The notes beneath the pieces are model-generated. The model made no database searches. It was not told the origin of the DNA and saw nothing but the letters and a program-made list of their open reading frames with translations. From Planctomycetota bacterium (lineage in GTDB: Bacteria > Planctomycetota > Phycisphaerae > UBA1845 > Fen-1342), in NCBI GenBank assembly GCA_030616465.1, contig JAUWXH010000006.1:1-15539 (forward strand): 15,539 nt of DNA, in the 5' to 3' direction. The translations under genes and the position numbers were made by a program. Positions 1 to 15,539 of the stretch are shown here, piece after piece; within the stretch, counting starts at the first letter, position 1, and each line of letters starts with the position of its first letter.

Positions 1-1154
1 GCGGCGTCAATCGTGATCGTCTTGAGCGCATCGTCGTCGCTGAGGCCGCCACGGACGGCGAACGCTGCTTCCATGTTCAGGTGCAACAGGCCACGTCCGG
101 CCACGCCCCAAAGGGTGATCGCCGGCGTGATCGGCCCGACGGCCACAGTCACGCCGTGGTCTCGCAGAATGCGCGCGTTCTCGATCGATGAGCCGGTCGG
201 CCGGTTGAAACGCTCGTCGGGGTAGCGGTCGGTGCGTGGAGTGATGACGGCGCTGACGCCGGCCCGCCCCAGTTCCGGTGCGGTGGTCCAGCCTTCGTAG
301 GCACCGCGGATCACCAGGTCGAAGCCGTAGGTGCTAGCCAGGTCCGCCAGGTCCCGCAGCCCATGTGTCGTGTTGGCGGACGCGACCGCCACCGCCTCGC
401 GTTGCAGCAGCTTGCGGTACTTCTCGTACTTGCCCTTCAGCCAGTCTTTGTCGGGCGGTTTGGCATCCTTGTTCTTTTTCTTCTCGCGTTCGAACTTCCG
501 CAGGTCGCGCAGGTACGTCCGCACGCGCTCGAAGTCGGCCCGCAATTGGGCCCGTTCCAGCGGCTTGCGCGTCTGATATGTCAGCTTCACGAACAAGTTG
601 CGCTTGAGGACCATGTCCTCGGTCGAGGCGAACGTCAGCTTGGCGGCATGATCGCCGGCCAGCGCCGTCGTGATCCCGCCCGCGAGTGCAACGTTCATGT
701 TGAGCGAGTACACGTTGGTGGCATCCTGCGGCTCCTTGCCACTGTGGATTCCCCCGGCGGCTGCGGCGACCAACCCCGGGTACACGTACATGCCGCGGGC
801 ATCGATCACCTCACACTCCTGTGGGAGGTGCACGTCTGTACCGATCGCCGCGATGACGCCATCCTTGGCGAGCACGGTGGCCCGCTCGAGCACCGGCCCG
901 GTAACGGTGTGCACTCGGCCGTTGATCACGGCCAGATAGCGCTCCTTCTCCTCCTCGACAGCCTGTGTCGTGGTGGTGGTAGGCGTCGTGGCCAATTGCG
1001 TTGCCGGAGCTGTTGCTGGTTGTGACTCGGGTTGGGTCGTCGGCTGCGACTGCGGCCGGGTAGTCGGTTGTGACTCGGGCTGTGCGATGGCCCAATGGGA
1101 CGCGATCAGGCTCCCGAGCAGCACGACGAACAGGGCTTTGCCGGTGCTATGCAT
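1..1154 (-). CDS. A8: secreted amidohydrolase-like protein, probable pseudo-enzyme (C-terminus beyond window)
   Basis: About 384 codons are present and the 3' end lies left of base 1. The product starts with a signal peptide (residues 1-24, cleavage near AIA|Q), followed by a Gln/Pro/Thr linker (about 25-66) with repeated TTQPESQP-like units, then an amidohydrolase composite domain. 'INGRVHTVTGPVLERATVLAKDGVIAAIG' spacing and a PGLV strand at about 126-129 are recognisable. The metal-binding HxH that should follow PGLID is replaced by an Ala/Gly run, so hydrolysis is unlikely unless the missing part compensates. A Lys/Arg-rich helical insert occupies about 200-252. The ATG overlaps the A7 stop by one base (TAATG), with GGAGGG at 1164-1169 as ribosome binding site, so translation is probably coupled to A7. 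It is the last visible gene of the operon. The amidohydrolase-fold assignment is good; the function is unknown. Confidence 0.85.
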   Translation of the reverse strand, partial: MHSTGKALFVVLLGSLIASHWAIAQPESQPTTRPQSQPTTQPESQPATAPATQLATTPTTTTTQAVEEEKERYLAVINGRVHTVTGPVLERATVLAKDGVIAAIGTDVHLPQECEVIDARGMYVYPGLVAAAAGGIHSGKEPQDATNVYSLNMNVALAGGITTALAGDHAAKLTFASTEDMVLKRNLFVKLTYQTRKPLERAQLRADFERVRTYLRDLRKFEREKKKNKDAKPPDKDWLKGKYEKYRKLLQREAVAVASANTTHGLRDLADLASTYGFDLVIRGAYEGWTTAPELGRAGVSAVITPRTDRYPDERFNRPTGSSIENARILRDHGVTVAVGPITPAITLWGVAGRGLLHLNMEAAFAVRGGLSDDDALKTITIDA

Positions 1155-2551
1155 TAGTCGGAGCCCTCCACCCGATGAACCACTTCGCCAGCGATCATCA
1201 CCTCGCGCACCCGGGCCGTCGGATCCAGCGGGTCGGCGTCCAGGAAAATCAAATCGGCGTCCTTGCCCTTTTCGATGCTGCCCAGCCGGGCGTCAAGTCC
1301 CAGCAGGCACGCCGGATACAGCGTGACTGACTTGAGCGCTTCCGCGCGCGGCCAGCCCTCACGCACCAACTCCGCGATCCGGCTGAGGATTCGTTGATGT
1401 TCGCGTGTCGAGTCGTCCAGCGGCGTCAGCGAGACCTCACAGCCGGCCGCAGAGATCATGCGCACGAGGTGGAGCCGCTCGGCGGAATACGGTACGCGGC
1501 CGATGCGCGGTTGGAGGACGATCTTGATTTCCTGCTCGCCCATTTTCTCGACCACGTATTCCAGGTCCGATTGCCGGGAGTAGCGGGCGTAGAAGTGGTG
1601 GGCGATTTCGAATTGCTCGAGCACTTCGCTCATGTGCACGAAGTCGGACGCGCTGCGTAGCTCAATCAGCGCGAAGATGTCCGGCTTCTCTTGAATCAAA
1701 TCGACCAGGGCCTGGTGCGCGGGGTCGATGGGCGGCGGCTTAAAGGCGGGCTGGGTCGTCGGTTGCGTGGCCGGCTTTGTCGCCGGCTCCTTCTTCTCGC
1801 CTTTGCGTTGCTTCTTCTGCTGCTCCGCCTTCTTCTTCTGCTCCTGCTTGAGCTTCTGCTGCTTCTTCTCGAATTCCTTGCGGGCCTTCTCGACCTTCTC
1901 GATCTCCTTCTGGGCCTTCTCAAGCGCGCCGCGCAACGTGCGCTTGTCGGCGGTGACGCGTAAGTAGGCCGGCGAAAGCAGCATACGCTGTTCTTCCAGA
2001 CCCACGGTCCGCACCACGATTGCCCGTCCAGGAATCCCGCTGCCGTCGGGCATCAATGCGAGCGCCGTGTAGCCCGCGTCGAGCAACTCGTCGTACACAC
2101 CCGGCGGCGGATAGTACTCATCCGCCACGCTCAGGTTTCCATGCACGCCGCTGCGCTTGTAGCCGGGTAATCCGTAGCGGGTGTGAGGGTTGACCAAGCC
2201 GGGCATGACGACCCGGTCGCGCGCGTCAATGACCTTTGCGTTCAGCGGATACTCGATGCCCCGGCCAACATTGTGGATCTTGCCGGCATCGAGCACGATT
2301 ATCCCCTTATCGATCTCCTTGCCCGTGTTGGTGATGACCTTGCGGGCGAGGATGACGACGAAGCGCTCATCGTCCTCCTCTTGGGCGAAGCACATACCCT
2401 GAAAGACCTCGACGTTCGCCACCCCGGCCAGCATCAGGAGCAACACCGCAATCGGCGCGGTTCTCGACGGCCAGCAACCGCGCGGGCTGAAGCCCGCAGC
2501 TCCAGACTGTTCCCTGGCTTTGTGGCTCTGTGGCTTCGTCGCTTCGGTCAT
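1154..2551 (-). CDS. A7: secreted amidohydrolase-like protein with long Lys/Glu insert, probable pseudo-enzyme
   Basis: The product is 465 residues. I chose the ATG at 2551 because it lies 11 nt after the A6 stop with AGGGAAG at 2558-2564; the open frame upstream is only antisense-like reading of A6. Residues 1-31 are a long basic leader, 32-50 a hydrophobic signal core, with likely cleavage near FAQ at 55-57. The N-terminal amidohydrolase beta segment spans about 64-118 and the C-terminal 'GSIEKGKDADLIFLDADPLDP' segment about 424-444, both typical of imidazolonepropionase-like amidohydrolases. The metal motif reads PGLVNPHTR (117-125): the second His of HxH is Arg, and the usual later His ligands are not recognisable. 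A coiled-coil-like Lys/Glu/Gln segment (about 208-255) runs into a TKPATQPTTQP linker and ends near 275. A scaffold or regulatory role is possible; no substrate can be inferred. Confidence 0.9.
   Translation of the reverse strand: MTEATKPQSHKAREQSGAAGFSPRGCWPSRTAPIAVLLLMLAGVANVEVFQGMCFAQEEDDERFVVILARKVITNTGKEIDKGIIVLDAGKIHNVGRGIEYPLNAKVIDARDRVVMPGLVNPHTRYGLPGYKRSGVHGNLSVADEYYPPPGVYDELLDAGYTALALMPDGSGIPGRAIVVRTVGLEEQRMLLSPAYLRVTADKRTLRGALEKAQKEIEKVEKARKEFEKKQQKLKQEQKKKAEQQKKQRKGEKKEPATKPATQPTTQPAFKPPPIDPAHQALVDLIQEKPDIFALIELRSASDFVHMSEVLEQFEIAHHFYARYSRQSDLEYVVEKMGEQEIKIVLQPRIGRVPYSAERLHLVRMISAAGCEVSLTPLDDSTREHQRILSRIAELVREGWPRAEALKSVTLYPACLLGLDARLGSIEKGKDADLIFLDADPLDPTARVREVMIAGEVVHRVEGSD
2482..2497. 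repeat. Palindrome inside the A7 leader
   Basis: GCGGGCT and AGCCCGC form a perfect 7-bp inverted repeat separated by GA. It is read in frame as about residues 18-24 of A7, between the start codon and the signal-peptide core. It resembles the short GC-rich dispersed palindromes common in environmental high-GC bacteria; copy number elsewhere cannot be judged from this window. Confidence 0.7.
2515..2538. repeat. Three 8-bp tandem units in the A7 N-terminal coding region
   Basis: Three adjacent octamers share the form TGGCTNNG on the plus strand, with variable bases TT, CT and TC. They code for residues about 5-12 of A7, just after its start codon. On the coding strand the units read roughly GCCACARA, similar in layout to the GGGACNNA units at 3846-3877. 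Confidence 0.65.
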
Positions 2552-2562
2552 CAGCGTCTTCC

Positions 2563-3840
2563 CTAGAATCGCCGCAACCCCTGCGTACCGTCGTACACGA
2601 TCTTGCCGTTCACGAGCGTCATCAGACAGGCCGAGCGCGGGTCTAGCGGGTCGCCGGTCCAGATGCTCAGGTCGGCCTGCTTGCCCGCCTCGACGCTGCC
2701 GACCTGGTTGTAGACGCCGATCGACTTGGCGGTGATGTTGGTGATGCCGCGCAAAGCCTGGTAGGGCAGCCAGCCATACCAGCACGCCATCGCCGCCTGG
2801 TAGGTCAACTCCTTCTGCGGCACGACCGGGGCGTCGGTGTTGACCCCGAGTCTGCGGACGCCGTTCTTCCACCACCCGCTGGCGTTGCCGATCATGCGTC
2901 GGGCGGTGCGGTCGAACTCGTACTGGCGCGGGCCGTTGATTGTCCACGCGTCGCTTTGGCTGACGATCGGCCCGACTTTCCACCCGTTGAACGTGCAGTG
3001 GTCGAGCACGGTCCAGATGTCGAACTTCGTGGTGATCATGTCGATCGTGGTCATCATCAGCTGGTAACCCTGCGTATGCAGGGTTGCCGGATACTCGCGC
3101 CGAAACGTTCCGCGCATGCCGGCCCAGATCGGGTCGAACTCCGGGCGTTCAGTCGTCTCGCCCTGCTCGTACGCCTCCCACTTCAAGTGATAGTCACGGG
3201 CCTTCTCAAGCGTTTGGCGCAGGTTCCAGTTCATGAATCTCCGGCCGTTGCCGCCAAAATACCATTCGGGGTTGCCCGCCTGAGAGATTTTGAGCGAGCC
3301 GGGCGAGCGCATGATGATCTCGCCGGGGTTCTTACCGCCCGTGCTGACGACCGTGCCCATGCCGGCCAAGTTGGTGCCGCTGCCGGGGATCATCATGACG
3401 GTGGTCACGCCGCCGGTACGAGCCATTTTGATCCAGTCGTTCTCGGCCTGCGGAATACAGCGGCTGTCCAGTCCGGGGTTCGTCTGGTAGACCATGTCGT
3501 TGAGGTCGCCCCAGCTACCCGCAGCGCTGTGGTTATGCGCGTCCACGTTGCCCGGCAGCAACCAGTGCTCGGAGAAGTCCAGCACGCGGTAGTTCTCCGG
3601 GATCTCGACCTCACCGGCCGGTCCGAACGCCTCGATCTTGTTCCCCTGCACGAGCACGACCGCGTCGTTCATGACGGTGTCGGCATCGTCGAGGGCGACG
3701 ACCTTGGCGACGCGGAACGCCAGGCCTGCGAAAGCTTCATCGGCGGCACTGGCGGATAAGCCACCAGCGGCACCCAAGGTGAGCGCCAGCGGGATCACCG
3801 TCACGAGGCGATAGGCCGACCTGGGCCTGCGAAGTGGCAT
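2563..3840 (-). CDS. A6: secreted metal-dependent amidohydrolase, the only member with a complete active site
   Basis: The product is 425 residues. The ATG at 3840 follows the A5 stop by 13 nt; an in-frame ATG at 3885 would overlap A5 and read through the octamer repeats, so it is less likely. Residues 1-32 form a signal peptide (twin basic start, hydrophobic 11-29, cleavage near SASA|AD). The amidohydrolase barrel shows H102-N-H104 after PGNVDA, a candidate carboxylated Lys at 184 (SLKIS), H255 (LHTQ), H281 (LDHCT) and D336 (NTDAP). These are the positions expected for binuclear or mononuclear members of the imidazolonepropionase/prolidase-like subgroup. The C-terminal beta segment (VGSVEAGKQADLSIWTGDPLDP) closes the composite domain. 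It probably hydrolyses an amide, cyclic imide or dipeptide-like substrate outside the cytoplasm; the substrate is not deducible. It is probably the catalytic member of the operon. Confidence 0.92.
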   Translation of the reverse strand: MPLRRPRSAYRLVTVIPLALTLGAAGGLSASAADEAFAGLAFRVAKVVALDDADTVMNDAVVLVQGNKIEAFGPAGEVEIPENYRVLDFSEHWLLPGNVDAHNHSAAGSWGDLNDMVYQTNPGLDSRCIPQAENDWIKMARTGGVTTVMMIPGSGTNLAGMGTVVSTGGKNPGEIIMRSPGSLKISQAGNPEWYFGGNGRRFMNWNLRQTLEKARDYHLKWEAYEQGETTERPEFDPIWAGMRGTFRREYPATLHTQGYQLMMTTIDMITTKFDIWTVLDHCTFNGWKVGPIVSQSDAWTINGPRQYEFDRTARRMIGNASGWWKNGVRRLGVNTDAPVVPQKELTYQAAMACWYGWLPYQALRGITNITAKSIGVYNQVGSVEAGKQADLSIWTGDPLDPRSACLMTLVNGKIVYDGTQGLRRF

Positions 3841-3845
3841 ATTCC

Positions 3846-3877
3846 TTGGTCCCTTAGTCCCTCTGTCCCTCGGTCCC
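3846..3877. repeat. Four 8-bp tandem units at the A5/A6 junction
   Basis: Four consecutive octamers fit TNNGTCCC on the plus strand, the variable pairs being TG, TA, CT and CG. They cover the last codons and the stop codon of A5 and the spacer holding the presumed ribosome binding region of A6. The coding-strand unit is GGGACNNA. The perfect spacing and shared five-base core make chance unlikely. Confidence 0.8.
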
Positions 3878-6796
3878 TTCTTCATCCGGCACCTCACGTC
3901 CGGCCACGATGACGCGCTCCAGGCGGCTGCCCGCATCAAACGGGTGCCCGCTAAAGATGAGCACGTCTCCGTCCTTCCCCGGTTCCAGTGAGCCGACGCG
4001 ATCGTCGAGCTTGTACATCCGGGCCGCGTCGATGGTCAGCGCCCGCAGCGCGGCGTCGCCGCCCAACCCTTGCTGCACCGCAAACAGCCCCATCAACGAC
4101 AGATTGCGCGCCCCATCCTCGCTGTCGCTTTGCAACGCGACGTGGATGCCTTTGCGGCTAAGGTCAGCCGCCTGGTTGTACGGCTGGCGAGTCCGCGTGC
4201 GGACGATTTCCCGCGGCAGGACCACGCCGAGCTTGTCCTTGTGCGCCACGATCTTCTCGGCGATGTCCGCGGCATCTTCGGCGCCGAGCAGCACCAGCGG
4301 CACCTTGAACTGATCGACAAACAGCTTGAGGGTGGCGTCGATCTCCGCGGCTGTCCGGACCTCTACGACCGCCGGTATCTTCCCCGCCAGCAGCGGACGG
4401 TACGGTTCGAGCTTTTCGTCAAGCTTAGGCGGGACAGGCCGCCCCTCCTTCGTCCGCTTCTTGCGGCGCTGGACTTTGAACTCGACCGGGCCCTTGTCGG
4501 TGCGGGTGGCCTCGAAGTCCAGGTTGAAGTCTCCGATGCTCACTTGGCCGACCATGTGGTCTTCGCGGTCCAGCGTCGCCGTAACCGTGGGTTTGCCGAG
4601 CGGAGTCTCGACTTCCATTTCGAGCGTGACTTCGTTGCCCTCGAGCGTCCCGCTCAACTCAGTTTCTTCACCGCTGGTCGGATCGGTCATGCGGCCTTCG
4701 ATCGCGGTCCCCGTGAGCTTCAGCGTCATCGTGCCTGACATGGGCTCCGGCATCGGGCCGCCGCTAAGGCTGTACTCCCACACGCCGGTGATCGGATCCG
4801 GCTTGCCCTCCTCGATAACCGTCTCCGCTTGCTCTTTGGGCTTGGCGGTCTTCTTGCCCTCGGCCCGCTCCTTCTTCCATTTCTCCAGCTCGGCGTAATA
4901 CTTCTTCCAGCTCTCGTCGTACTTCTTTCCAGCGTCCAGCGCTTTGCGCAGCGGCTCGATGCCGGTGAGCGGGTCCTTTCCGCGTAGTGAGAACTTCAGC
5001 CCGCACAGTTCGCGCGCGACGAGCTCGTCGCGCCCCTGGCCGTAGGTCTTGATCGCGGCCATCCGAGCACCATTGCTCGCGCCGCGATAGGGAGCCAGCA
5101 GAATGGAGGTGACACCCGCCCGGGCCACGCGCACGAATTCGCGCCCCGCCACCGCGACCGTCCAATCCGGGCGTAGGTCCGGTGTGGCAACCGTCCGGTC
5201 GCCCTCCAGGCCGAGATGCCCGTGGGCGTCGATGAAGCCGGGTGTAAGAAAGCCATCCGCCCCGGCGTCGATGACCTTGGCAAATGGCGGATGTGGCACA
5301 CGCTGCCCGACCGCTTGTATCTTCCCGTCTTCGATCAGCAGCGCGCCGTCACGCAACACCGTCCCGTCGCCAACCCAGATCGTTCCGGCTTTGACGACAA
5401 GCGCGTCGCTCGGCGGAGCCTCGAAAACGACCCGACCAGCGACGTAGACCTGCTGCACGTGACTGTTAACGTCCAGCGGGTCGCCGGTCAGCACGAGCAG
5501 GTCGGCGTCTTTGCCGGGAGCGAGGCTACCGACGCGTTCGTGGACGCGGAGGATTTCGGCCGGTACGCGCGTGATTGCAGCGAGTGCCTGCTCGGGCGGC
5601 ATACCGCCACGGACGGCGAGGATGGCAGCCATGCGCAGATCTTCCCGGCGGTCACCTTGCCCGCCGGCCAGCGCGATAGTGAGCGCACCCGGCTCGGCGG
5701 CGTCGGCGAGCCGTCCGGCGGTCGTGAGCCGGGGCTCGAGCGCCTCCGGGCGCGGCCCGATATTCGGGCCGGGGTGGCGATACTCATGTTCCAAGCGCAC
5801 CACCACCGGCACCCCCGCCTCTGCCAACACCGCCGGGAGTTGCTCGGCTTGCATCAGGCCAACCAGATATGCCGGTCGGTCGTGCCGCTTGATGAATTCC
5901 ACGGCCCCCTCGATGTCCGCTGCCCGTCGCACCTGAACGCGTAGTGGCAAACCGGCCGCCCAGCTCTCGGCAAATGAGCGGGCGTGCACATCGAATTTGT
6001 CGAGTCGCTGCGCCTCGGGATTCTCCAGCCACGATTTCGCCGCCGCGATTCGCTCCTCCAACTCCAGGTACTGTCCCAATCGCGAGTCCGGCCTCTGCCC
6101 ACGGGCCGGCTCAATCGGCACGTCCGAGGAAGCGTAAAACGGCCGCTCGACCACGGGCGGCGGATCGAATACGCCCAACGTGATCGTCAGATCAGCCGCC
6201 GAGACGAGCGTACGCTCTTCCAGCGGTCCAGCCAGCTTGACCACGGCCCCCACGCCGCTGACCAGTCGGTGACTTCCAGGATCGACATGCACGGTCGTGG
6301 TACTGCGCGCGAGCGTGGCGGTGTAGTCGGCGTACGTGTCGAACGCATCCAGCGCGCGATACGCACCGCTGACGGAGTGGGGCCCGGCGTGCTGGCCCGC
6401 CAGTGAACCGCCAGCCGATACGAAACCCGGGCAGACTACCTCGTCGCGCAGCTCAATCAGGGGCAGGTCCGGCGGAACGTCGAGATCCTGGCCGACTGCT
6501 ACGATCCGTCCGTCGCGTACCAGGATCATTCCGCGCTCGATGGGCCCGGGCTGTTCGGACGTTACCGGGTACACCGCTCGGGCGCGAATGACGAATGAAG
6601 GTGCAGCGCCGGCATGTGTGGGCGGTGGCGTGACGCGCTCTTCTTCGGTCGACGGCTCGGGCAACCCGGTCATCGCCAGCAGGCCGAGCGACAACACAGC
6701 GCCCACCGCCACCAGGATTACCGGTCGGAAGGCGGTGCCGCCGGGGCGGCAGTGCCGCCGGGCTGCAGCCGCACTTGTTCTCTTCGGCCGCCTCAC
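3854..6796 (-). CDS. A5: membrane-anchored protein with two fused amidohydrolase domains and an inserted beta-rich domain
   Basis: The product is 980 residues, about twice the family length. It starts at GTG 6796, overlapping the A4 stop by 4 nt (GTGA), with AGGAG at 6805-6809. A basic leader (1-23) precedes one hydrophobic segment (about 24-44) that could be an uncleaved anchor. Domain 1 (about 66-460) ends in a standard GSLAPGKDADLLVLTGDPLD segment, but its HxH site reads PGFVSAGGS, so it should be inactive. Domain 2 (about 464-970) has PGFIDAHGH with H525/H527 and a candidate active-site Asp at 891 (ALQSDSE), but no His at the usual two later positions (VEVRTAAE and LVLLGAED). Inside domain 2 a Lys/Glu helix (620-655) is followed by a beta-rich insert (about 668-768, beginning ITGVWEYS) that resembles small antiparallel beta-barrel domains found in other secreted bacterial proteins, then a basic linker. 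Catalysis by domain 2 is uncertain. Confidence 0.9.
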   Translation of the reverse strand: MRRPKRTSAAAARRHCRPGGTAFRPVILVAVGAVLSLGLLAMTGLPEPSTEEERVTPPPTHAGAAPSFVIRARAVYPVTSEQPGPIERGMILVRDGRIVAVGQDLDVPPDLPLIELRDEVVCPGFVSAGGSLAGQHAGPHSVSGAYRALDAFDTYADYTATLARSTTTVHVDPGSHRLVSGVGAVVKLAGPLEERTLVSAADLTITLGVFDPPPVVERPFYASSDVPIEPARGQRPDSRLGQYLELEERIAAAKSWLENPEAQRLDKFDVHARSFAESWAAGLPLRVQVRRAADIEGAVEFIKRHDRPAYLVGLMQAEQLPAVLAEAGVPVVVRLEHEYRHPGPNIGPRPEALEPRLTTAGRLADAAEPGALTIALAGGQGDRREDLRMAAILAVRGGMPPEQALAAITRVPAEILRVHERVGSLAPGKDADLLVLTGDPLDVNSHVQQVYVAGRVVFEAPPSDALVVKAGTIWVGDGTVLRDGALLIEDGKIQAVGQRVPHPPFAKVIDAGADGFLTPGFIDAHGHLGLEGDRTVATPDLRPDWTVAVAGREFVRVARAGVTSILLAPYRGASNGARMAAIKTYGQGRDELVARELCGLKFSLRGKDPLTGIEPLRKALDAGKKYDESWKKYYAELEKWKKERAEGKKTAKPKEQAETVIEEGKPDPITGVWEYSLSGGPMPEPMSGTMTLKLTGTAIEGRMTDPTSGEETELSGTLEGNEVTLEMEVETPLGKPTVTATLDREDHMVGQVSIGDFNLDFEATRTDKGPVEFKVQRRKKRTKEGRPVPPKLDEKLEPYRPLLAGKIPAVVEVRTAAEIDATLKLFVDQFKVPLVLLGAEDAADIAEKIVAHKDKLGVVLPREIVRTRTRQPYNQAADLSRKGIHVALQSDSEDGARNLSLMGLFAVQQGLGGDAALRALTIDAARMYKLDDRVGSLEPGKDGDVLIFSGHPFDAGSRLERVIVAGREVPDEEGTEGQRD
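6731..6770. repeat. Cluster of GC-rich palindromes in the A5 leader
   Basis: Three adjoining palindromes are visible: GGCGG-TG-CCGCC at 6731-6742, GGCGGC-AGT-GCCGCC at 6745-6759 and the perfect palindrome GGCTGCAGCC at 6761-6770. The first two look like variants of one unit. They are translated in frame as residues of about 9-22 of A5, before its membrane segment. Confidence 0.65.
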
Positions 6797-8175
6797 TCGG
6801 CTTTCTCCTGGGGCTGGTCGGCTTCGGAGGACAGCAGCCGTTGCAGCCGCACGTCTTTCTCACGTTCGTAGGCCAGAATCCCGTCGATGAAGACCTTCTC
6901 GACCACGCTGGTGAAGTCGAGCGGGTCGCCGCTGAAGATCACCAGGTGAGCGTCCTTGCCCGGTTCGATCGAGCCAAGCCGCTTCTCCAGCCCCAGCATC
7001 TTGGCCGGGTTGAGCGTGATCGCTCGCAGGGCCTCGTCGCGCGGGATCCCGTGCCGCACACACTGGGCTGCCTGATAGGTCAGCATGCGCTCGGCATATG
7101 AATCGTCCGGCCCCGGCACTAGCGCGAACAGCAGCCCGGCCTCGAAGATCTCTTTCGGCACGAACGTCTCACGCACCTCGCCGGTCAACGGGTTCGTCTC
7201 GCGGTGGGTGAGTTGGGAAGGCAAGACCACCGGCCGCGCGGCCTGCTTCAACTCGCGGACCGCCTTGTAGCAGTCACCACCCAGCACCAGCACCGTGCGG
7301 GCGAAGAACCCATTGTCGTTCGCCACCTTGACCGCAAGCGCCACATCCATCGCGTTGCCGCAGTAGACAAAGGCCCCGAGCGGTTTGAACAGCGTGGGCC
7401 CGTCTTCGCCCTCCACGCGCACCTGCCCGCCGCGCAACCGCAGCAGGTTGCGATGCTGATCGTCGATGTCTTCGGCCCGGATCAGCTCGCGACCGCGCTT
7501 GCGCGCCTCGGCCGGCCCGACCTCGATCTCCTTCTCGTCCTCTTTGAGCTTCTCCTCGTAGCGCTTCTCGGCGAGCTTGGCCAGGTAATCGTCCAGCTCC
7601 AGAAACGTCTCACGCAGCATGGCCATCTGGAGCATGCGGTCGTGGCCGCGGCGCGGCGTGGCCGAGATCTTCAGGAAGGCCCCTTCGGCAATCGTCATCT
7701 CTGCCACGGTCATTCCGATCGGCCGCACGACCCGTCCGACGCCGCCGATGACCGTGTTGTTCGCCGGGATCACGTGAACACCCGTCGTTCCCAGCCGCAG
7801 GCAATCCTCGAAGAAAAGCTGTGACGGGTCGAGCGCGTCGCGAGCGTCCAGGTGCGGCGTCACGGGGCGGTTCTCATTAGGGATGTCCATGCCGCGCCAG
7901 GTGTGGACGTTGATCATCCCGGGAAAGACGACCTTCCCGCTGACGTCGAACACCCGCGCGTCGTACGGGACCTCGACGTCCTTCCCGACGGCGACGATCT
8001 TGCCGCGCTCGATCAGCACGGTGCCCTGCTCGATCGGCGCGCCGGAAACCGGAATGATCCGGCCTCCGGTCAGGGCCACCTTGTCCGGCGGTGGACAGGC
8101 CGCGACGGCGCCGGCAGCCATCGACCCAAAGATCGCCAGCAGACATGCCACGTTGCCAAGCCGCGTATAAAGCAT
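6793..8175 (-). CDS. A4: amidohydrolase-like lipoprotein, probable pseudo-enzyme
   Basis: The product is 460 residues. I chose the ATG at 8175 (GAAGGA at 8185-8190, 9 nt spacing) because the signal peptide begins right there; the longer open frame to 8262 runs into A3. The signal ends in VAAC (residues 24-27), a good lipobox, so the protein is probably a lipoprotein. The N-terminal segment (IIPVSGAPIEQGTVLIERGKIVAVG-like) and the C-terminal GSIEPGKDAHLVIFSGDPLD segment mark the family. The metal motif is PGMINVHTW (85-93): H91 is kept and the second His is Trp. Lys169 in FLKIS could be the equivalent of the carboxylated Lys. The charged helical insert spans about 194-245. The sequence GPDD near 355 occupies the region of the active-site Asp. 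A 67-nt gap separates it from A3, the largest gap in the operon. Function unknown; catalysis doubtful. Confidence 0.9.
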   Translation of the reverse strand: MLYTRLGNVACLLAIFGSMAAGAVAACPPPDKVALTGGRIIPVSGAPIEQGTVLIERGKIVAVGKDVEVPYDARVFDVSGKVVFPGMINVHTWRGMDIPNENRPVTPHLDARDALDPSQLFFEDCLRLGTTGVHVIPANNTVIGGVGRVVRPIGMTVAEMTIAEGAFLKISATPRRGHDRMLQMAMLRETFLELDDYLAKLAEKRYEEKLKEDEKEIEVGPAEARKRGRELIRAEDIDDQHRNLLRLRGGQVRVEGEDGPTLFKPLGAFVYCGNAMDVALAVKVANDNGFFARTVLVLGGDCYKAVRELKQAARPVVLPSQLTHRETNPLTGEVRETFVPKEIFEAGLLFALVPGPDDSYAERMLTYQAAQCVRHGIPRDEALRAITLNPAKMLGLEKRLGSIEPGKDAHLVIFSGDPLDFTSVVEKVFIDGILAYEREKDVRLQRLLSSEADQPQEKAE

Positions 8176-8242
8176 CAGATCGTTTCCTTCGCCCCTCAGG
8201 CCAGCATCCGACTGGTAAACCCGCTGTCTCGCTCTCGACCCT

Positions 8243-9823
8243 CTACTCCTCGTAGACGACACGCCCGTCGATCATCACCAGCAAGGGGCGGCTGGTCGCA
8301 TCGAACGGCTCGGTATTCCAGACGACGAGGTCTGCCGCCGCCCCAGGTGCCACAACGCCCAGCTTGCCCGACAACCCGAGCAGGGAGGCTGGCGTAGCGG
8401 TAATCGCCCGAAGCGCCTCCTCAGCCGACAGCCCGTGCCGCACCGCGTACATGCCCTGGCGCAGGAGCCCCTCTTCGTCGCGCAATTCCTGGGCGGTCAG
8501 CGCGAACTCGATCCCGGCGTCGGCCAACTGCTTCGGTGTGTTCAGCCGCGGGCGGTTGGCCTCGCCGCTGTAACGCCGGTAGCCCGTCGGCGCCATGTAA
8601 ATCGGCCCGAAGATCACTGGGACGTCGGCGGCCTTGAGCTGGGGCAGGCAACGATAGGCTTCGGTCGCTTCCTCAAGAACGAACTTCAGCTTGAATTCGG
8701 CGGCCAGTCGCAGCGCGGTGAAGATGTCGTGCTGCATGCGTGCCTGAATGCGCAGCGGGATCTCCCCGTCGAGCACCTGTTGCAGCACAGGCAGCGCCTG
8801 GCGCGGCGGCATGTCAGCCCCGTGCAATTCGAGACCATCGCGGGCGCGCTGCGCGTCGTAAAACGCCTTGCGGAAAACCCACTCCACCCCCATTCGCGTC
8901 GTCGGCCGCCGCGTGTGGAAGCTGGGGGGTACCGGACGTCCGCGCCCCGGCGGGCGCCTGTTCCTGCGGCCGCGCCGGCTGGGATCACTACCCATCGTCG
9001 CTTTCACCGCGCCTGCCCGCCGCACGACGCGCCCGCTCAGCGGACCGGCGGTCTTCACAACCGTGCCGCGGCTGCCGATCACACTGGCCGAGTCCGGCGA
9101 GACGTAAACGGTTGTCACGCCGCCCTTCATCAACCGCGCGAAGTCGTTCGAGAACAAATTCAGCGAGTCGCTCACCAACCGATGTGGGGTTACCTCGGAA
9201 GCATGCTCGGCCCACGTCAGATTGGGTGGGCTGGCAGCGGCGAGCCCTTCCGGCGTGGTAAACGAAGGTGGGCCTCCGCTCTCGGTGCCGGACGCCCGGT
9301 CCTCGTCCCCGTATCTACGCTGTTGGAGTTCCGCCAGCGTGTGCCAGAAAGAAGGTTGCGCCGCACTGTAAACGCGGCTCGAGGCCGCTTGCGGGATCTC
9401 GAAATTGACTGCACAGCAAGCGTCGATCAAGCCCGGCGTAATCACGGCGTCCGCCAGCTCGATCACCCGGGCCTGCTCGGGAACTTGGAGATCGCGCCCC
9501 ACCGCTTCAATTCGACCGGCCCGGACGATAACGATGCCACCGTCGATCGGAGCGCCGCTGACGGTGTAGACACGCCCGGCTTTGAGGACGATGACCTGGT
9601 CGGTATCGTCCGCGGCTGCCGGGCTTGTTGCTGCCGACAGCACGAGCATTAGGGCGACGGCGATGCGCACTGGCGGGCAAGCCGCCCGGGGCACCCGACG
9701 GGAAGGGATTCCCGTGCGAGTGGGTGCGAGAAGGGATTCTCGCACCAGCAGCGCACTGGCGGGCAAGCCGCCAGTGCCACCCGCAGTCGACCCCCGTCCG
9801 CTGTCCAACGCAGCCGCAATCAT
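8243..9823 (-). CDS. A3: secreted amidohydrolase-like protein with Cys-Cys in place of the HxH site
   Basis: The product is 526 residues from ATG 9823, which overlaps the A2 stop (ATGA) and has a strong ribosome binding site at 9831-9838 (GGAGGGAG, 7 nt spacing). A 51-residue leader comes first, much of it encoded by palindromic repeats. The signal core follows (about 53-69, cleavage near PAAA|DD). A GTG at 9670 would give a normal-length signal peptide but has no visible ribosome binding site. The family core is clear: PGLIDA at 130-135, VKATMGSDP near 273-281, TTRMG at 308-312, and a C-terminal VVAPGAAADLVVWNTEPFD segment. The HxH positions read C136-C137-A138, and the later His positions are also lost (RIQARM, FVLEEATEA). 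An Arg/Pro-rich stretch (283-306) interrupts the otherwise conserved region. It is probably not a standard hydrolase. Confidence 0.88.
   Translation of the reverse strand: MIAAALDSGRGSTAGGTGGLPASALLVRESLLAPTRTGIPSRRVPRAACPPVRIAVALMLVLSAATSPAAADDTDQVIVLKAGRVYTVSGAPIDGGIVIVRAGRIEAVGRDLQVPEQARVIELADAVITPGLIDACCAVNFEIPQAASSRVYSAAQPSFWHTLAELQQRRYGDEDRASGTESGGPPSFTTPEGLAAASPPNLTWAEHASEVTPHRLVSDSLNLFSNDFARLMKGGVTTVYVSPDSASVIGSRGTVVKTAGPLSGRVVRRAGAVKATMGSDPSRRGRRNRRPPGRGRPVPPSFHTRRPTTRMGVEWVFRKAFYDAQRARDGLELHGADMPPRQALPVLQQVLDGEIPLRIQARMQHDIFTALRLAAEFKLKFVLEEATEAYRCLPQLKAADVPVIFGPIYMAPTGYRRYSGEANRPRLNTPKQLADAGIEFALTAQELRDEEGLLRQGMYAVRHGLSAEEALRAITATPASLLGLSGKLGVVAPGAAADLVVWNTEPFDATSRPLLVMIDGRVVYEE
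9667..9777. repeat. Palindromic repeat island in the A3 leader
   Basis: The island holds four hairpins. GCACTGGCGG-GCAAG-CCGCCAGTGC at 9753-9777 is a perfect 10-bp stem. A degenerate copy of it lies at 9667-9694 (same left arm, damaged right arm). Between them, two stems share the loop GGGA: a 7-bp stem at 9698-9715 and a 10-bp stem at 9723-9746. The arrangement looks like nested dispersed elements. It is translated in frame as about residues 16-52 of A3. Confidence 0.8.
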
Positions 9824-10992
9824 GGCCGATCTCCCTCCGATGCTTTCAGGCCGGGCACGTAGACGCGCTGGCCGGCGACATAGACCGCCAGGACACGCGA
9901 ACGCAGATCGAGCGGGTCTCCCGAGAACACGACCAAGTCGGCCTGGTGTCCCTTTTGAATCTTGCCGATCCGATCGCCCATACCGAGCAGGTCTGCCGGG
10001 ACAGCAGTGATCGCCCGACGGGCGGCCTCCGGCGTCAGGCCCGCCCGCGCCGCAACGGCCGCCGCTATGCGCAGGCTGTCGGCGGGCCGTGCGGGCAATC
10101 CGCCGGCGAGTGCGACCGGCACGGCGTGGCGTTCGAAGACCCCGGCAGCCAGCGCCTCGCGGCGCCCGGTGGCCAGGTCGAGCGGACCGACGATGACGCC
10201 TGTAACCTGTCCGGCCACCTGTTCGGCTACCAGCCGCGCGTCGCGCGTGTGGACCAGGACCAGTCGCAGACCGTAGTCCGCCTTCAGCCGCAAGGCCGCC
10301 AGCACGTCGGCCCCGCTGGGAGTGGTAAAGATGCCCGTCAGACGCCCGGCTGCAAAGGCCGCCAGCGGATTGTCTTCCGACGCATCCCGCCGTGCGGCTT
10401 CGATGGTTTCCCGCAACAGGCCGATCGCTCCGGCGCGTGAGGTCGGCTCGCGGTCCTGCTTGAAGGACTCCGGTGCGATCGAGAGTTTGAGCGGGCCGGC
10501 CTCGGTGAGGATGCGTGGCTTGCCATCCGGGCCCGCCGTCTGGCAGACCGCGATCCGTCCGCCCACCAGGTTTTGATCATCGGGTGCCAGCGCGAACGTT
10601 GTCACACCGGCCGCGAGCGCTGCTCGCAACTGCCGCGAGAAGCGATCGAACGCGTCGCGCGCGTTGACCCGCGGCTGAATCGCGTTCTGCCGCTCGCTCA
10701 AGTTGCCGTACGCTCCCAAGGAGGCCGCGCAGTCAATGAGTCCAGGGCAGACGACGCCACCAGGATACGCATCCACGCGCGCGTCGCTCGGCACGTCCCC
10801 GGCGACCTGCGTAATCACCCCGTTCTCGACCACCACCACCCCGCCGGTGTGGATCTTGCCGTCGGCACCAACATACGCGGCGGCATGGACGACACGGCCA
10901 GCCGACGTTTGTGCCCCGGTTACGGCGGGCAGTAACGCGGCGGCCAGCAGGCCGACCAACACCTTGCTGTGACCCACAAGCGAACAGTTCAC
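9820..10992 (-). CDS. A2: secreted amidohydrolase-like protein, shortest member, probable pseudo-enzyme
   Basis: The product is 390 residues. It starts at GTG 10992, overlapping the A1 stop by 4 nt (GTGA), with AAGGAAGGA at 11001-11009 (8 nt spacing). A signal peptide occupies residues 1-27 (hydrophobic 11-24, cleavage near TGA|Q). The composite domain follows: PGLID at 83-87, then C88-A89-A90-S91 where the HxH should be, so both first-shell His are gone. Lys169 in PLKLS and PTSRAG (183-188) match conserved positions of catalytic relatives. The charged insert seen in the other paralogs is minimal here (about 195-210), which explains the short length. One His (VLVHTRD, about 248) survives at a late ligand position; the Asp position reads VALAGG. 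The C-terminal KIQKGHQADLVVFSGDPLDLRS segment is typical. The fold is well supported; catalysis is not expected. Confidence 0.9.
   Translation of the reverse strand: MNCSLVGHSKVLVGLLAAALLPAVTGAQTSAGRVVHAAAYVGADGKIHTGGVVVVENGVITQVAGDVPSDARVDAYPGGVVCPGLIDCAASLGAYGNLSERQNAIQPRVNARDAFDRFSRQLRAALAAGVTTFALAPDDQNLVGGRIAVCQTAGPDGKPRILTEAGPLKLSIAPESFKQDREPTSRAGAIGLLRETIEAARRDASEDNPLAAFAAGRLTGIFTTPSGADVLAALRLKADYGLRLVLVHTRDARLVAEQVAGQVTGVIVGPLDLATGRREALAAGVFERHAVPVALAGGLPARPADSLRIAAAVAARAGLTPEAARRAITAVPADLLGMGDRIGKIQKGHQADLVVFSGDPLDLRSRVLAVYVAGQRVYVPGLKASEGDRP
9831..9838 (-). promoter_or_regulatory. Strong ribosome binding site of A3
   Basis: GGAGGGAG on the minus strand lies 7 nt before ATG 9823, inside the last codons of A2. 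It favours the long-leader start of A3 over the GTG at 9670, which has no comparable site. Confidence 0.7.
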
Positions 10993-12452
10993 TCGTCGCG
11001 TCCTTCCTTATCGCTATCGGCGTGATAGACCTCGCGGCCGCCGACAAATACACGTTCCACCGTTGCCCCGGGCGCGAAGGGATGGTCGCTCCAGATCACC
11101 AGGTCGGCCCGCAGGCCACGCTTGACGCGCCCGATTTCCTTCTCCACCCCGAGCAGGCCTGCCGCCTTGAACGTAATTGTTTCCAGGGCGGCATCGGCGT
11201 CGAAGCCGTGTCCCACCGCGCGGGCCACCCGCAGGGCTAACTGCGGCGGCGCCGTCGGCGATGGCAGCACGCCCGAGCCGAAATACACGTCCACGCCCGC
11301 TTCCCTCAGGATCGCGGCCGCATCCGGGCGCGCGTGGCGCCCCGCGCCGGGAACGTAGACCACCGGGGCCGGCGGCGCGGACAGCACGACCGGCACCTCG
11401 AGTTCGGCCAGCCGGTCGGCGACCAGGTGTGCCCCGGTCGCCCCTTCAAGAATCAGCGCCGCGTTGAACTCTTCTGCGATCTGCAGCACGTTGAGAATGT
11501 CCGCCGGATGGTGTGCTTCGACACGCAGGCGCAATTCGCCGTCGATGACCCGCAACAACACTTCGGCGTTTCGGTCCTTCTTGGGCTCGGTTGGCTTCTT
11601 CAACTCCTCCTTCTTCTCGTCCTTCTTGCGAGGCTTGTCCTGATCCGGCTTCTGCCGGTCCCGCGAAGGGGCGTTCTTCTTGCCACCCGTGCCTTTCTTC
11701 GACGGCTGCTTCTTCTCCTCTGCCTTCTTCTCCTGTGCTTTCTTCTTGGCCCGCTCCACGAGCTTCTTTTCGTATTCCTCGAGGTCTTCCTCGTAGTCCT
11801 CCCACGCCTGGCGATACTCTTTGGCCGCTCGGAAGCGCTGTCGCAGCGCCTCGGCCGCCTTGACCCGCGCCAGCGGGCCTTGGCTTCCCTGCGCGCCGAC
11901 CGCGGCGCACAGGGCGGCCTCGTCGGTGAGCACGAACTCTTCCCAGTCGTCGCCGGGGCGGGGTTGCAGGCGGATGACGGCCCCAAGCCCGCCGATGCCG
12001 GATGCGCTGCGGGACGGGACGTAGATCGCGGTCACACCTTCGCGTAGCGCGGCCCGGATTTCGTCCTCAGCATAGCGGTCGAAACCATCGACGGCTTTTG
12101 CCGTGGCTTGATCCCCGGCAGGCGCAAAGCGCAGCGCCAATGTGCTGTGGGCATCAATCAGGCCGGGGGTCACATACTTGCCAGCCGCCTGAATCTTCTT
12201 CGCCATGAAGGAGACTTCCGCTTTTCGGCCGACAGCGGAGATCTTGCCGCCCTGAAAAACGACCGTGCCACGCTCGATCGTCCTGCCGTCGCCGGTCAGG
12301 ATCGTGGCCTCCTGGATCGCAACCGGGCGAACCTGGGCCAGTAGCGGGCTAACCGCCACCAGCCAACACCCGAGAACCTGGAGAAGCAGAGGAATCCTGT
12401 TCCGACCGCTGCTCTGCGAAACGGCGGACACGCACGATGGTGAATTGGTCAT
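10989..12452 (-). CDS. A1: secreted amidohydrolase-like protein, first gene of the operon, probable pseudo-enzyme
   Basis: The product is 487 residues from ATG 12452. A signal peptide covers residues 1-39 (hydrophobic 20-38, cleavage LLA|Q). The N-terminal beta segment (about 43-98) leads to PGLIDAHST: H102 is kept but the second His is Thr104. The usual helical insert has grown to almost 90 residues (about 207-295): first a Tyr/Glu/Lys amphipathic helix, then a very Lys-rich low-complexity stretch with KK, KP and EK steps. After it comes LRLRVEAHHPADI, where His314 or 315 matches a late ligand position, then LILEGATGAH with the next His lost. The C-terminal GRVKRGLRADLVIWSDHPF segment is typical. 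The Asp position near GVDVYFGSGV is not recognisable. The promoter and operator candidates lie 60-95 nt upstream, so this gene leads the operon. Function unknown. Confidence 0.9.
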   Translation of the reverse strand: MTNSPSCVSAVSQSSGRNRIPLLLQVLGCWLVAVSPLLAQVRPVAIQEATILTGDGRTIERGTVVFQGGKISAVGRKAEVSFMAKKIQAAGKYVTPGLIDAHSTLALRFAPAGDQATAKAVDGFDRYAEDEIRAALREGVTAIYVPSRSASGIGGLGAVIRLQPRPGDDWEEFVLTDEAALCAAVGAQGSQGPLARVKAAEALRQRFRAAKEYRQAWEDYEEDLEEYEKKLVERAKKKAQEKKAEEKKQPSKKGTGGKKNAPSRDRQKPDQDKPRKKDEKKEELKKPTEPKKDRNAEVLLRVIDGELRLRVEAHHPADILNVLQIAEEFNAALILEGATGAHLVADRLAELEVPVVLSAPPAPVVYVPGAGRHARPDAAAILREAGVDVYFGSGVLPSPTAPPQLALRVARAVGHGFDADAALETITFKAAGLLGVEKEIGRVKRGLRADLVIWSDHPFAPGATVERVFVGGREVYHADSDKEGRDE

Positions 12453-12869: not shown

Positions 12870-13916
12870 TTAGGGAGGCGGCTCGCCACACCAGCAATTC
12901 TGCTCGTCGCCCACCTCCTCGACGGTGGCACCGCTCAGGGCGGCCGTCTCGGACTCGAAGAATTCCACGCCCAGGATTCTGTAATCAGCACCGTCGTAAG
13001 GACATTCCAGGTCGCGCCATGCCAGGCCGAAGGCGAGCATCTGCCCGGCCTCGAGGTCTTCCGGAAACCCCAGCCCGTCCGGCGAGTTAATCGGCACATC
13101 CACGACGAGGAAGGTCGGGTCGTAGTTGTCGCGCGGGTCCAGCACCAGCCACATCTCGTCACCATACTGCTCGACAGGCTGGCCGTCGCGTAGCCGCACG
13201 GCTGCCAGGTCGAAGTACTCACACTGGGTCTGCCTGGGGCCATCGTACCGGGCGAAGTACAGCAAGACGCGCATCGTTACGGGGTTCTGGGTTGCGCCGT
13301 CGTACCGGTTCGGAATTATGGTCTTAAACCCGACCGCCTGGGGGTAACCGTACTCATCATCCCAAACCCAAAAGGCGGGGCTGCTCTCGACGGAAGCCCA
13401 AGACGGCGGGCCTTCTTCGGGCGCAAGGTAAAACTCATCGACGAACACGCTGAAGAACTCGGGGCCCGGGTCGCCTTGCTCGCCCCGCTCGCCCTGTTCG
13501 CCCTGGATACCCTGCTCGCCTTGGATACCCTGCTCGCCTTGAATACCCTGCTCGCCCTGCTCACCTTGTGCACCCTGCTCGCCTTGCGCACCCTGCTCGC
13601 CTTGCGCACCCTGCTCACCTTGCGCACCCTGCTCGCCTTGCGGACCTTGCTCGCCGGGTGCACCGGGGACGGCCTGCGCCGATTGGCCTGCCTCGCCTGG
13701 CTCGCCTGGCACACCTTGCTCACCTTGCACACCTGGTGGCCCTGGTTGTCCGGCCGCCCCGTACGCCGCCATGAGCGCACTCGAGCCGACGAGCAGGTCA
13801 CGGACCCAATCCTGCACCCACAGAGCGTTGTCCGGGGCGCAGGCGGTCGTGCCGATGACTGTAGCGACTACCACCGACAGGATCACACCTGTCACAGACT
13901 TTCTTCGCGATCGCAT
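12870..13916 (-). CDS. Collagen-like surface lipoprotein with C-terminal globular head
   Basis: The product is 348 residues. ATG 13916 was chosen for its very strong ribosome binding site (GGAGGAGGAG at 13921-13930, 4 nt spacing). Residues 1-26 form a signal peptide ending in TTAC, a weak lipobox, so Cys26 may be lipidated. A short helical segment (30-53, with [11 protein letters not shown]) precedes a collagen-like stalk at 56-153: 8 Gly-X-Y triplets, a five-residue break after GQS, then 23 triplets dominated by GEQ, GAQ and GIQ. A head domain of about 195 residues follows, rich in aromatic and acidic residues and probably beta-structured; a CWC motif lies near the C-terminus. Collagen-like proteins of this kind trimerise and stand off the cell surface. 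I do not recognise the head. Low Pro in the Y position suggests stabilisation by Glu/Gln contacts instead of hydroxyproline. Confidence 0.9.
13494..13628 (-). repeat. 18-bp tandem repeats coding for the collagen-like stalk
   Basis: Four units coding for GAQGEQ are followed by one GEQ triplet and three units coding for GIQGEQ. The units are nearly identical at DNA level, including at third codon positions, which points to recent expansion by slippage or recombination. Each unit keeps the reading frame, so copy number can change without breaking the gene. Confidence 0.85.
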
Positions 13917-13920
13917 GAAA

Positions 13921-13930
13921 CTCCTCCTCC
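13921..13930 (-). promoter_or_regulatory. Strong ribosome binding site of the collagen-like gene
   Basis: GGAGGAGGAG on the minus strand lies 4 nt before ATG 13916. It is the strongest Shine-Dalgarno match in the window and decides the start against the longer open frame from 13946. Confidence 0.8.
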
Positions 13931-13980
13931 CTGACCAAGGGAACATGTAACCGAGGACGCACGTGCCTTCCGCACCGATC

Positions 13981-14307: not shown

Positions 14308-15339
14308 TTACAGTCCGATACGATCACCGATCGCCGCTACGCGGAAACCCGCACGCTCGATCTGCCGGCATGCGGGACTGCCCGATCGTAGAGCGGGATT
14401 CGTGTGATTCAGATGGATGAACCGGATCTTGGCTCGCTCGGCACGCGGGAGAGCTTCGAAGCGCTTCATGCTCTCCTCGATGAACGGATGTGGGATGTCG
14501 GCCATGCTGCGGCCCGGGATCTCGCCGTCTGCGAAGAACGTGCCGTCCAGGTAGGCGACGTCCGCCTCGGCGATGAACTTTTCGATGGACCGGCCCCAGC
14601 GCTCCCACTTGTCGATGTCCGGGATGTACAGCACCGAGCGGTTGGGCCCCTCGATCCGGAACCCGACCGTCTCGGAGTATTCGTCGCGATGCGGTACCAG
14701 TATCGGCGTAGCGGTCAAACGGTGGTTGAGCGCCACCGGCTCGTCGGCACGCATGCTGCGCAGATCGATGTTCCCGAGCCGCACCAGTTGATCCCACGGC
14801 CCATTGCGTGAAAGAAACTCGCGCATGCGCCGCATGGCGTACACCGGGACCTTCCGCGCGCCGATCGCCTCCCGCCCGAGGTACATGAGGCCGGTGTAGT
14901 GGCCGATGTGCGCGTGCGTAAGCAGAATCCCCGCGAGGCCCGGAGCGGATGAGGGTGGCATGAGTTCGTCGAGCGCGCGGAGCTGTTGGGGGAGATCCGG
15001 TGTCGCATCAAACAGCCAGCGCTCTCTCGTGGCTGGGTCGATAACGGCGACGCAGGACGCCCCGCAGCGTTGTGACGAATCGCGCCAGGCCCTTGCGCAG
15101 CATTCCCGTTGGCAGCCGGCCTGCGGATAGCCGCCATCCTGCGCGACGCCGAGCACGACCAGATAAGGTCCGGTGTGCTGGTCCAGCGATTCTTGCGCCG
15201 CGTGAGATCGGCCATAATGCCCTGCGGTGCAAGCTGTTATGCCGAGTCTCAGCAACGCGGGAGGCAAGATGGCCAAGCACGAGCATCCGCCCAGAATCCA
15301 CCTTCCTCGCGGTTGGCCGCGGCGTGTCAAGTCGGCCAT
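14308..15339 (-). CDS. PqqB-like metallo-beta-lactamase-fold hydrolase
   Basis: The product is 343 residues if started at ATG 15339. The core from about 59 matches the PqqB-like branch of the metallo-beta-lactamase fold: LGVAQDGGYPQAGC with a Cys cluster (C76, C80, C81) like the zinc-binding Cys of PqqB, THAHIGH (141-147), H217, D241, D265, H284 and the C-terminal HLNHTNP (309-315). These are the expected metal ligands, so it is probably an active metalloenzyme. Many such proteins occur without a pqq operon, so a role in pyrroloquinoline quinone synthesis cannot be assumed and none of those genes is nearby. The apparent N-terminus (basic residues 6-13, hydrophobic 15-34, Cys37) looks like a lipoprotein signal, but its DNA is shared antisense with the transposase gene and there is no ribosome binding site before 15339. 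The true start may have been lost. Confidence 0.82.
   Translation of the reverse strand: MADLTRRGQPRGRWILGGCSCLAILPPALLRLGITACTAGHYGRSHAAQESLDQHTGPYLVVLGVAQDGGYPQAGCQRECCARAWRDSSQRCGASCVAVIDPATRERWLFDATPDLPQQLRALDELMPPSSAPGLAGILLTHAHIGHYTGLMYLGREAIGARKVPVYAMRRMREFLSRNGPWDQLVRLGNIDLRSMRADEPVALNHRLTATPILVPHRDEYSETVGFRIEGPNRSVLYIPDIDKWERWGRSIEKFIAEADVAYLDGTFFADGEIPGRSMADIPHPFIEESMKRFEALPRAERAKIRFIHLNHTNPALRSGSPACRQIERAGFRVAAIGDRIGL
15259..15264 (+). promoter_or_regulatory. Ribosome binding site of the transposase gene
   Basis: GGGAGG lies 4 nt before ATG 15269 on the plus strand. It supports this start for the edge-truncated transposase and lies antisense within the PqqB-like gene. Confidence 0.6.
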
Positions 15340-15539
15340 GCTGCACGTCGTCGCGTTGGCCCAATGCGCCGTGGCCTTCACCCGCAGTTGGGCGGTCGAC
15401 GGTCGCATCACCCGCGTGCGGCTCAAGGCTGAAAACGCCGAGCTCCAGCAACAGGTGGCGTTGCTCAGAGAGGAGATGCGCATCAAGGACGCGCGCATGA
15501 AGCGGGTCGACTCGCAGAGACGGCCGCACTATGTGCCGA
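15269..15539 (+). CDS. Transposase/integrase N-terminus (cut by window end)
   Basis: Ninety codons are visible from ATG 15269 and the frame is open at the right edge. The N-terminus has WPRRVKSAMLHVVALAQ (about residues 16-32), then a helical segment with LKAENAELQQQVALLREE (about 54-71), followed by RIKDARMKRV and RRPHYVP. This order matches, as I recall the family, the start of DDE-type integrase-core transposases frequent in planctomycetes, where RPHY-P leads into a helix-turn-helix and then the catalytic core. The core itself is outside the window, so activity cannot be judged. The gene is divergent from and overlaps the PqqB-like gene by 71 bp. Confidence 0.75.
   Translation, partial: MAKHEHPPRIHLPRGWPRRVKSAMLHVVALAQCAVAFTRSWAVDGRITRVRLKAENAELQQQVALLREEMRIKDARMKRVDSQRRPHYVP

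Follow-up and report, generated by a model that had tools for sequence, protein, structure and literature searches.

The window analysed here is a stretch of 15,539 nucleotides (nt), positions 1 to 15,539 of contig JAUWXH010000006.1 (assembly GCA_030616465.1), from a bacterium of the phylum Planctomycetota. The assembly, of metagenome type, has 575 contigs with 2.77 Mb in total and is 62.7% complete; the window is one of these contigs. Eight adjacent genes, A1 to A8, here called the octet, run head to tail on the minus strand from position 12452 to the window edge. They contain nine amidohydrolase domains, because A5 carries two. Judged by a test of six metal-site residues, one of the nine domains, that of A6, has a complete site and the other eight are non-catalytic. 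The features are as follows, with site residues in the order of the six positions and A6 residue numbers counted from the minus-strand frame 2563-3846.

A1, 10989..12452, minus strand: 487 amino acids; predicted non-catalytic paralogue; site H,T,C,E,G,G; the barrel holds a long charged insert.
A2, 9820..10992, minus strand: 390 amino acids; predicted non-catalytic paralogue; site A,S,K,T,H,G; the start and the A1 stop share 4 nt.
A3, 8243..9823, minus strand: triad CCA; site incomplete.
A4, 6793..8175, minus strand: paralogue predicted to be non-catalytic, with site H,W,K,Y,G,P; frame open from 8262, probably starting at 8175.
A5, 3854..6796, minus strand: two fused amidohydrolase domains, both incomplete; first domain G,S,T,Q,?,G; second domain H,H,K,E,G,D.
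A6, 2563..3840, minus strand: the sole gene with a complete site, H104, H106, K186, H257, H283 and D338.
A6 metal-site codon span, 2833..3537, minus strand: H104 at 3537-3535 to D338 at 2835-2833, by arithmetic from the frame.
A7, 1154..2551, minus strand: paralogue predicted to be non-catalytic, with site H,R,R,L,Y,D and an insert rich in lysine and glutamate.
A8, 3..1154, minus strand: truncated at the contig end; paralogue predicted to be non-catalytic, its site being A,G,K,S,R,I in the scoring of 72 loci (see below).

The A2/A3 and A4/A5 junctions, like A1/A2, are overlaps of 4 nt, and the ATG of A8 overlaps the A7 stop by 1 nt. The spacers measure 13 nt between A5 and A6 (A6 start at 3840) and 11 nt between A6 and A7 (A7 start at 2551), and the A3/A4 gap is 67 nt if A4 starts at 8175. 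With the chosen starts, six of the seven gene junctions are thus overlapping or no more than 13 nt apart. Seven of the eight window proteins match Pfam Amidohydro_1 or Amidohydro_3 above the cut-off. The cut A8 of the window has no Pfam match; its orthologues match in three cases out of three.

The full metal site was scored as the six residues H, H, K, H, H and D, with the profile of each paralogue group aligned to the A6 profile. Frames were taken stop to stop, so the N-termini of the alignments may hold untranslated residues. All 29 genomes scored, the window's own and its order-level relatives, carry a complete A6 site with the six ligands invariant. The domains of A1-A5, A7 and A8 are complete in none of the 27-29 rows per group, in an alignment where two A8 positions and one position of the first A5 domain fall in gaps and the second A3 position maps off the triad. 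The triads after the PG motif are HST in A1, AAS in A2, CCA in A3, HTW in A4, GGS and HGH in the two domains of A5, HNH in A6, HTR in A7 and an Ala/Gly run in A8, just as the original prediction for this DNA had read them. That prediction had counted seven of nine domains as having lost the metal site. The loss is borne out, but the count has to be corrected to eight of nine. The second domain of A5, which had been taken to keep the site, has E351 and G377 at the positions of A6 H257 and H283; of its 29 orthologues, 14 have R, L, F or Y in place of the first histidine and 28 retain the second. A second intact site in this domain was rejected, as HGH is present but the two later histidines are absent. 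The HxH motif alone was likewise dropped as a test, since it overcalls the second A5 domain and the A2 copies of loci L086, L087, L108, L109 and L121. These A2 copies keep H, H and K without the remaining residues, and look like stepwise loss from an active ancestor.

The residues that replace the ligands differ in constancy. A3 has Q, E and A where A6 has H, H and D, and its Q is found in 28 of 28 rows; among the 29 A4 rows 25 have Y and 27 have K, and 23 of the 29 A7 rows have R. Variable residues occupy most former ligand positions in A1, A2, A8 and the first domain of A5. Alternative metal sites in most paralogues are not indicated as far as tested: no near-invariant (at least 97%) histidine or cysteine was found in A1, A2, A3, A7 or A8. 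A4 has one near-invariant cysteine, and the first A5 domain one near-invariant histidine.

The wider scoring covered 72 loci, made up of the window, 31 order-level stretches and 40 from the class and phylum. A complete site is present in 80 of 82 A6 domains versus 1 of 518 other domains, some of the 518 rows being truncated at contig ends; for this count the second A3 position was set by hand to HxH+2. The fifth position of the first A5 domain is unalignable, so that this domain is unable to score complete; the other five residues are present in 0 of its 69 rows. Of the two A6 domains that fall short, one belongs to a gene cut by its contig end (L114) and the other reflects a slip in the alignment (L090, which reads PGFVDLHCHNQ). 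The only complete case of the 518 is the A2 part of an A1-A2 fusion in genome G583 (L115, 5810-8503), and the A6 of this genome also carries its HxH. Nearly all loci examined hold a single catalytic type. Eleven loci, all among the class and phylum stretches, have two to four A6 copies. The operons of L091, L098, L099 and L111 contain runs of three or four A6-like genes whose sites are complete.

The site is complete in none of 240 A4-like database proteins, whose commonest readings, HWKYGP, HAKYGP and HSKYPT, retain H, K and Y. Incomplete-site proteins of this kind bear enzyme names in some public records: the A4 orthologues P0043 and P0099 are recorded as N-substituted formamide deformylase and adenine deaminase. 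Two other A4-like proteins with incomplete sites, P0196 and P0201, bear names that carry Armatimonadota and Chthonomonadaceae, and the A4 family may therefore extend beyond Planctomycetota.

Distribution was assessed by searching the window's genome and those of 100 relatives (101 in all) with A2, A4, A6 and A8 as probes. Orthologues of all four were found in the same 29 genomes (own included), and the other 72 have none at orthologue-level scores. The lowest orthologue versus the best other match was 328.6 versus 101.5 bits for A6 (the former being one of two pieces in G010), 475.6 versus 126.4 bits for A4, and 124.6 (a partial match) versus 101.9 bits for A2. For A8 the lowest orthologue scored 279.2 bits, with no other match at E 1e-25. 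From the other 28 octet genomes 31 stretches were fetched. A1-A8 stand in one order in 22 of them, and the remaining nine are contig-cut and agree as far as they reach. Wider samples, searched at E 1e-60, gave matches to A6 in 40 of 397 class-level genomes and to A4 in 86 of 392 phylum-level genomes. The 40 further stretches were hand-picked, 37 from genomes among the 86 and three found by A6 alone. By best profile the same order recurs in these 40, with exceptions. Divergent copies of A1, A2, A3, A7 or the second A5 domain match another group best in several loci; loci with misplaced best scores include L086, L087, L090, L099, L104, L105, L107, L109 and L113. In G547, A1-A5 are together and A6-A7 lie on another contig, both parts being kept. 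A scan of genome contigs gave two loci, one of them a SAR86 match at 25% identity.

The ratio of nonsynonymous to synonymous substitution rates (dN/dS) is 0.025-0.141 over 42 gene-pair values, the pseudo-enzyme genes included; these come from seven of 12 chosen pairs, the other five having given numerical errors, presumably by saturation. The window's genome is in none of the 12 pairs, and three useful pairs share genomes of one genus. No ratio near 1 was seen, and the statement of the original prediction that the genes are not decaying pseudogenes holds where the ratio is computable, the frames being open and the gene order kept. Two trees were built, one of 95 domains from 11 loci and the other of 67 domains. 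In both, domains cluster by paralogue and not by genome, with nine label changes in the first tree (minimum 8) and 13 in the second (minimum 13). The labels come from profile scores and are thus tied to similarity; the trees themselves were built without labels. The exceptions to single clades are A2 and A3 in the first tree and A1 and A2 in the second, and the branching among the nine clades is not resolved by the two trees. Either the nine domains seem to predate the sampled lineages as a set, or they seem to have moved as a unit.

For each of the eight window genes, at least one candidate start gives a protein with a hydrophobic N-terminal stretch. A hydrophobic stretch upstream of the tested domains was found in 52 of 67 for A6 and 50 of 55 for A8, with 0-5 per gene in the internal control; the test is one of crude hydrophobicity, not signal-peptide prediction, and was applied to domains in which the PG motif could be recognised and the sequence upstream was long enough. 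On this basis A1-A8 are probably exported. The proposal that these are secreted pseudo-enzymes kept by selection stands in its second part, given purifying selection where computable and joint presence of the genes; for secretion, the hydrophobic N-termini fit export.

Predicted structures of two non-catalytic domains superpose on solved members of the amidohydrolase superfamily, so that in these two models the fold is kept. In the model of A5, a long helix (609-645) and an all-beta stretch (approximately 660-765) are predicted, both within the second domain. This second domain is shorter in some lineages, for example in L094 and L108. The A6 site aligns to H, H, K, H, H and D of PDB 3ooq, as read from the printed alignment. 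Against the NCBIfam equivalogs for Xaa-Pro dipeptidase and imidazolonepropionase, A6 scored below the cut-off (best match NF051886, 65.1 versus 500 bits; hutI, 36.6 versus 298 bits). No substrate can be named, because these scores are far under the cut-offs.

As a control for alignment artefacts in the ligand loss, 20 stretches with non-octet relatives were hand-picked from the list of relatives; they come from nine genomes with the octet and 11 without it. Of the control domains, 17 of 44 are complete. The non-octet loci with two adjacent genes (L123-L129, L131-L133 and L135-L141) follow one rule in 17 cases out of 17: the first gene in reading direction is complete and the second degenerate. 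In the 67-domain tree, which includes eight of the 17 pairs, complete and degenerate members each form one clade. Since all these pairs are complete/degenerate and each kind is one clade, the pairing of a live with a dead domain is, on sequence evidence, not confined to the octet. Two further loci, L122 and L130, have frames of about 1390-1430 amino acids with three domains, namely a degenerate one, a near-complete one (H,H,K,H,Q,D) and another degenerate one; L134, at a contig edge, shows a single degenerate member. From the genome of the window itself, three domains are uninformative, L003 being incomplete in the alignment and L004 and L005 unaligned.

For comparison with known systems, dihydroorotase is a member of the amidohydrolase superfamily and ClpP is a protease without a metal site. 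The MetCaCb metformin hydrolase, of the ureohydrolase/arginase superfamily, consists of two proteins that are each inactive alone and together form an active heterohexamer with metal in MetCa only, according to the sections of PMC11271267 dealing with it. The octet resembles it in that paralogous metallohydrolases are paired in one gene cluster, one keeping its site and the other, in MetCaCb, having lost most ligands (PMC11271267). The genetic part of the principle is thus present at the octet: adjacent paralogous genes, one with the site and partners without. The octet differs in superfamily, in having eight pseudoenzyme domains as opposed to one partner, and in that its complex is a proposed one where that of MetCaCb is proven. 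In the Pseudomonas aeruginosa ATCase-pseudo-dihydroorotase (ATCase-pDHO) dodecamer, an inactive dihydroorotase homologue is needed for assembly and activity (the passages of PMC7053772 on this particle). Unlike in the octet, the catalytic partner there is ATCase, from another family, and there is one pseudoenzyme type. The chloroplast ClpP/ClpR core combines several catalytic and non-catalytic members of one family in one ring, as given in part of PMC5447895; its genes are nuclear and plastid and its ring is proven, unlike here. Aspergillus niger ochratoxinase, a relative, is a homo-octamer of D4 symmetry in the description given within PMC11342369. By structure match, ochratoxinase, 3feq and 3mkv have the same fold as the modelled domains. 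These three are built from identical subunits, and PDB 3ooq, a Thermotoga maritima amidohydrolase, has one intact chain type, unlike the octet with one catalytic type among nine domains. Several PDB relatives have eight chains per entry, chain counts not being assemblies.

The explanation favoured here, with moderate confidence, is that A1-A8 encode an exported enzyme-pseudoenzyme heteromer, with A6 catalytic and the eight other domains non-catalytic. A6, whose ligands are conserved, would be a metal-dependent hydrolase and would probably act on an amide or a small peptide, like enzymes of the prolidase/imidazolonepropionase-like branch of the superfamily. The eight other barrels would have lost the metal site and been kept as non-catalytic subunits. 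They would build the oligomer, probably through interfaces like those of the homo-oligomeric relatives, and would offer substrate-capturing or gating surfaces, the long charged inserts among them. We infer physical assembly from the joint retention of the genes, their order, the tight junctions, the likely export, the ochratoxinase octamer and the MetCaCb and ATCase-pDHO precedents; stoichiometry, substrate and the export of all eight products are inferred as well. Several observations weigh against the heteromer. Nine domains, and the eleven reached in three fetched loci with extra A6 copies, do not fit an octamer in a simple way, and the nearest structure, PDB 3ooq, has ten chains per entry (again a chain count, not an assembly). 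The A2 of G583 (L115) shows all six residues in the printed sequence. A3 and A4 might have separate functions, given their conserved residues at former ligand positions (Q, E and A in A3; H, K and Y in A4). Only about half of the tested A7 (20 of 41) and A5 (25 of 48) domains show the hydrophobic stretch, and no partner gene common to the octet flanks was found in the 72 loci.

The last point comes from flank families defined by blastp at E 1e-12 among flank frames inside the fetched stretches, the families being unnamed. A dedicated partner gene beside the operon was rejected as a candidate, no flank family, transporters included, being present in more than 5 of 72 loci. The question of a transcarbamoylase neighbour, as in the ATCase-pDHO type, meets the same bound: every one of these unnamed families is in at most 5 of 72 loci within the fetched stretches.

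A broader form of the heteromer explanation is put forward tentatively. The octet may encode an exported machine, present in many lineages of Planctomycetota, of at least nine versions of the barrel, one of them catalytic, in which the dead barrels would give architecture and substrate selectivity. The tandem pairs and three-domain fusions would then be simpler forms, and pairing with a dead paralogue would be general in this branch.

The main rival, unlikely in our judgement, is that the dead paralogues are independent exported binding proteins, with pockets turned to ligand binding or sensing, which are co-transcribed with the hydrolase and do not assemble. It draws on the residues typical of each paralogue (Q in A3, Y and K in A4, R in A7) and on the A4-like database proteins, never complete and mostly retaining H, K and Y. 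The variable former ligand positions of A1, A2, A8 and the first A5 domain fit a structural role better, kept order and joint retention exceed the needs of separate binders, and the flanks hold no family, transporters included, that occurs in more than 5 of the 72 loci. A second rival gives the dead paralogues a regulatory or decoy role, in which they bind substrate or inhibitor and modulate A6 transiently. Such roles exist for other pseudoenzymes, and the present data fit this and a stable heteromer alike; however, eight different modulators of one enzyme kept together would be unusual, and we consider this rival improbable. Slightly less probable still is that the dead paralogues are enzymes with a metal-free mechanism or an alternative metal site. 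The conserved polar residues of A3 and A4 at former ligand positions would suit it, but the absence of near-invariant histidine or cysteine from A1, A2, A3, A7 and A8, a result that covers these two residues and not sites of Asp/Glu only, argues against it, as does the replacement of H, H and D by Q, E and A in A3. That the paralogues are relaxed or decaying functionless duplicates, as ligand loss in eight of nine domains might suggest, is rejected as highly improbable by the low dN/dS of the computable pairs, the open frames, the kept order and the grouping of domains by paralogue and not by genome.

Enzyme-pseudoenzyme complexes are already known as a kind. A combination of one catalytic domain with eight dead domains of the same superfamily and of such spread was not found described; among open-licence PubMed Central papers, no description of such an operon or of the rule for live/dead tandem pairs was found. 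Should the assembly exist, it would represent an extreme enzyme-pseudoenzyme division of labour, a single catalytic type being retained alongside eight non-catalytic domains across many planctomycete lineages, and the contribution of dead paralogues to a metalloenzyme would be directly testable gene by gene. The six-residue site also gives a re-annotation rule for a large set of planctomycete genes.

Two further genes lie in the window, upstream of A1 on the minus strand. The gene at 12870-13946 encodes a collagen-like repeat protein, and relatives of this protein are present in the flanks of four other octet loci (L060, L061, L088 and L100). The gene at 14308-15498 encodes a protein of the metallo-beta-lactamase fold that is PqqB-like, with a score of 143.7 bits versus a cut-off of 245.

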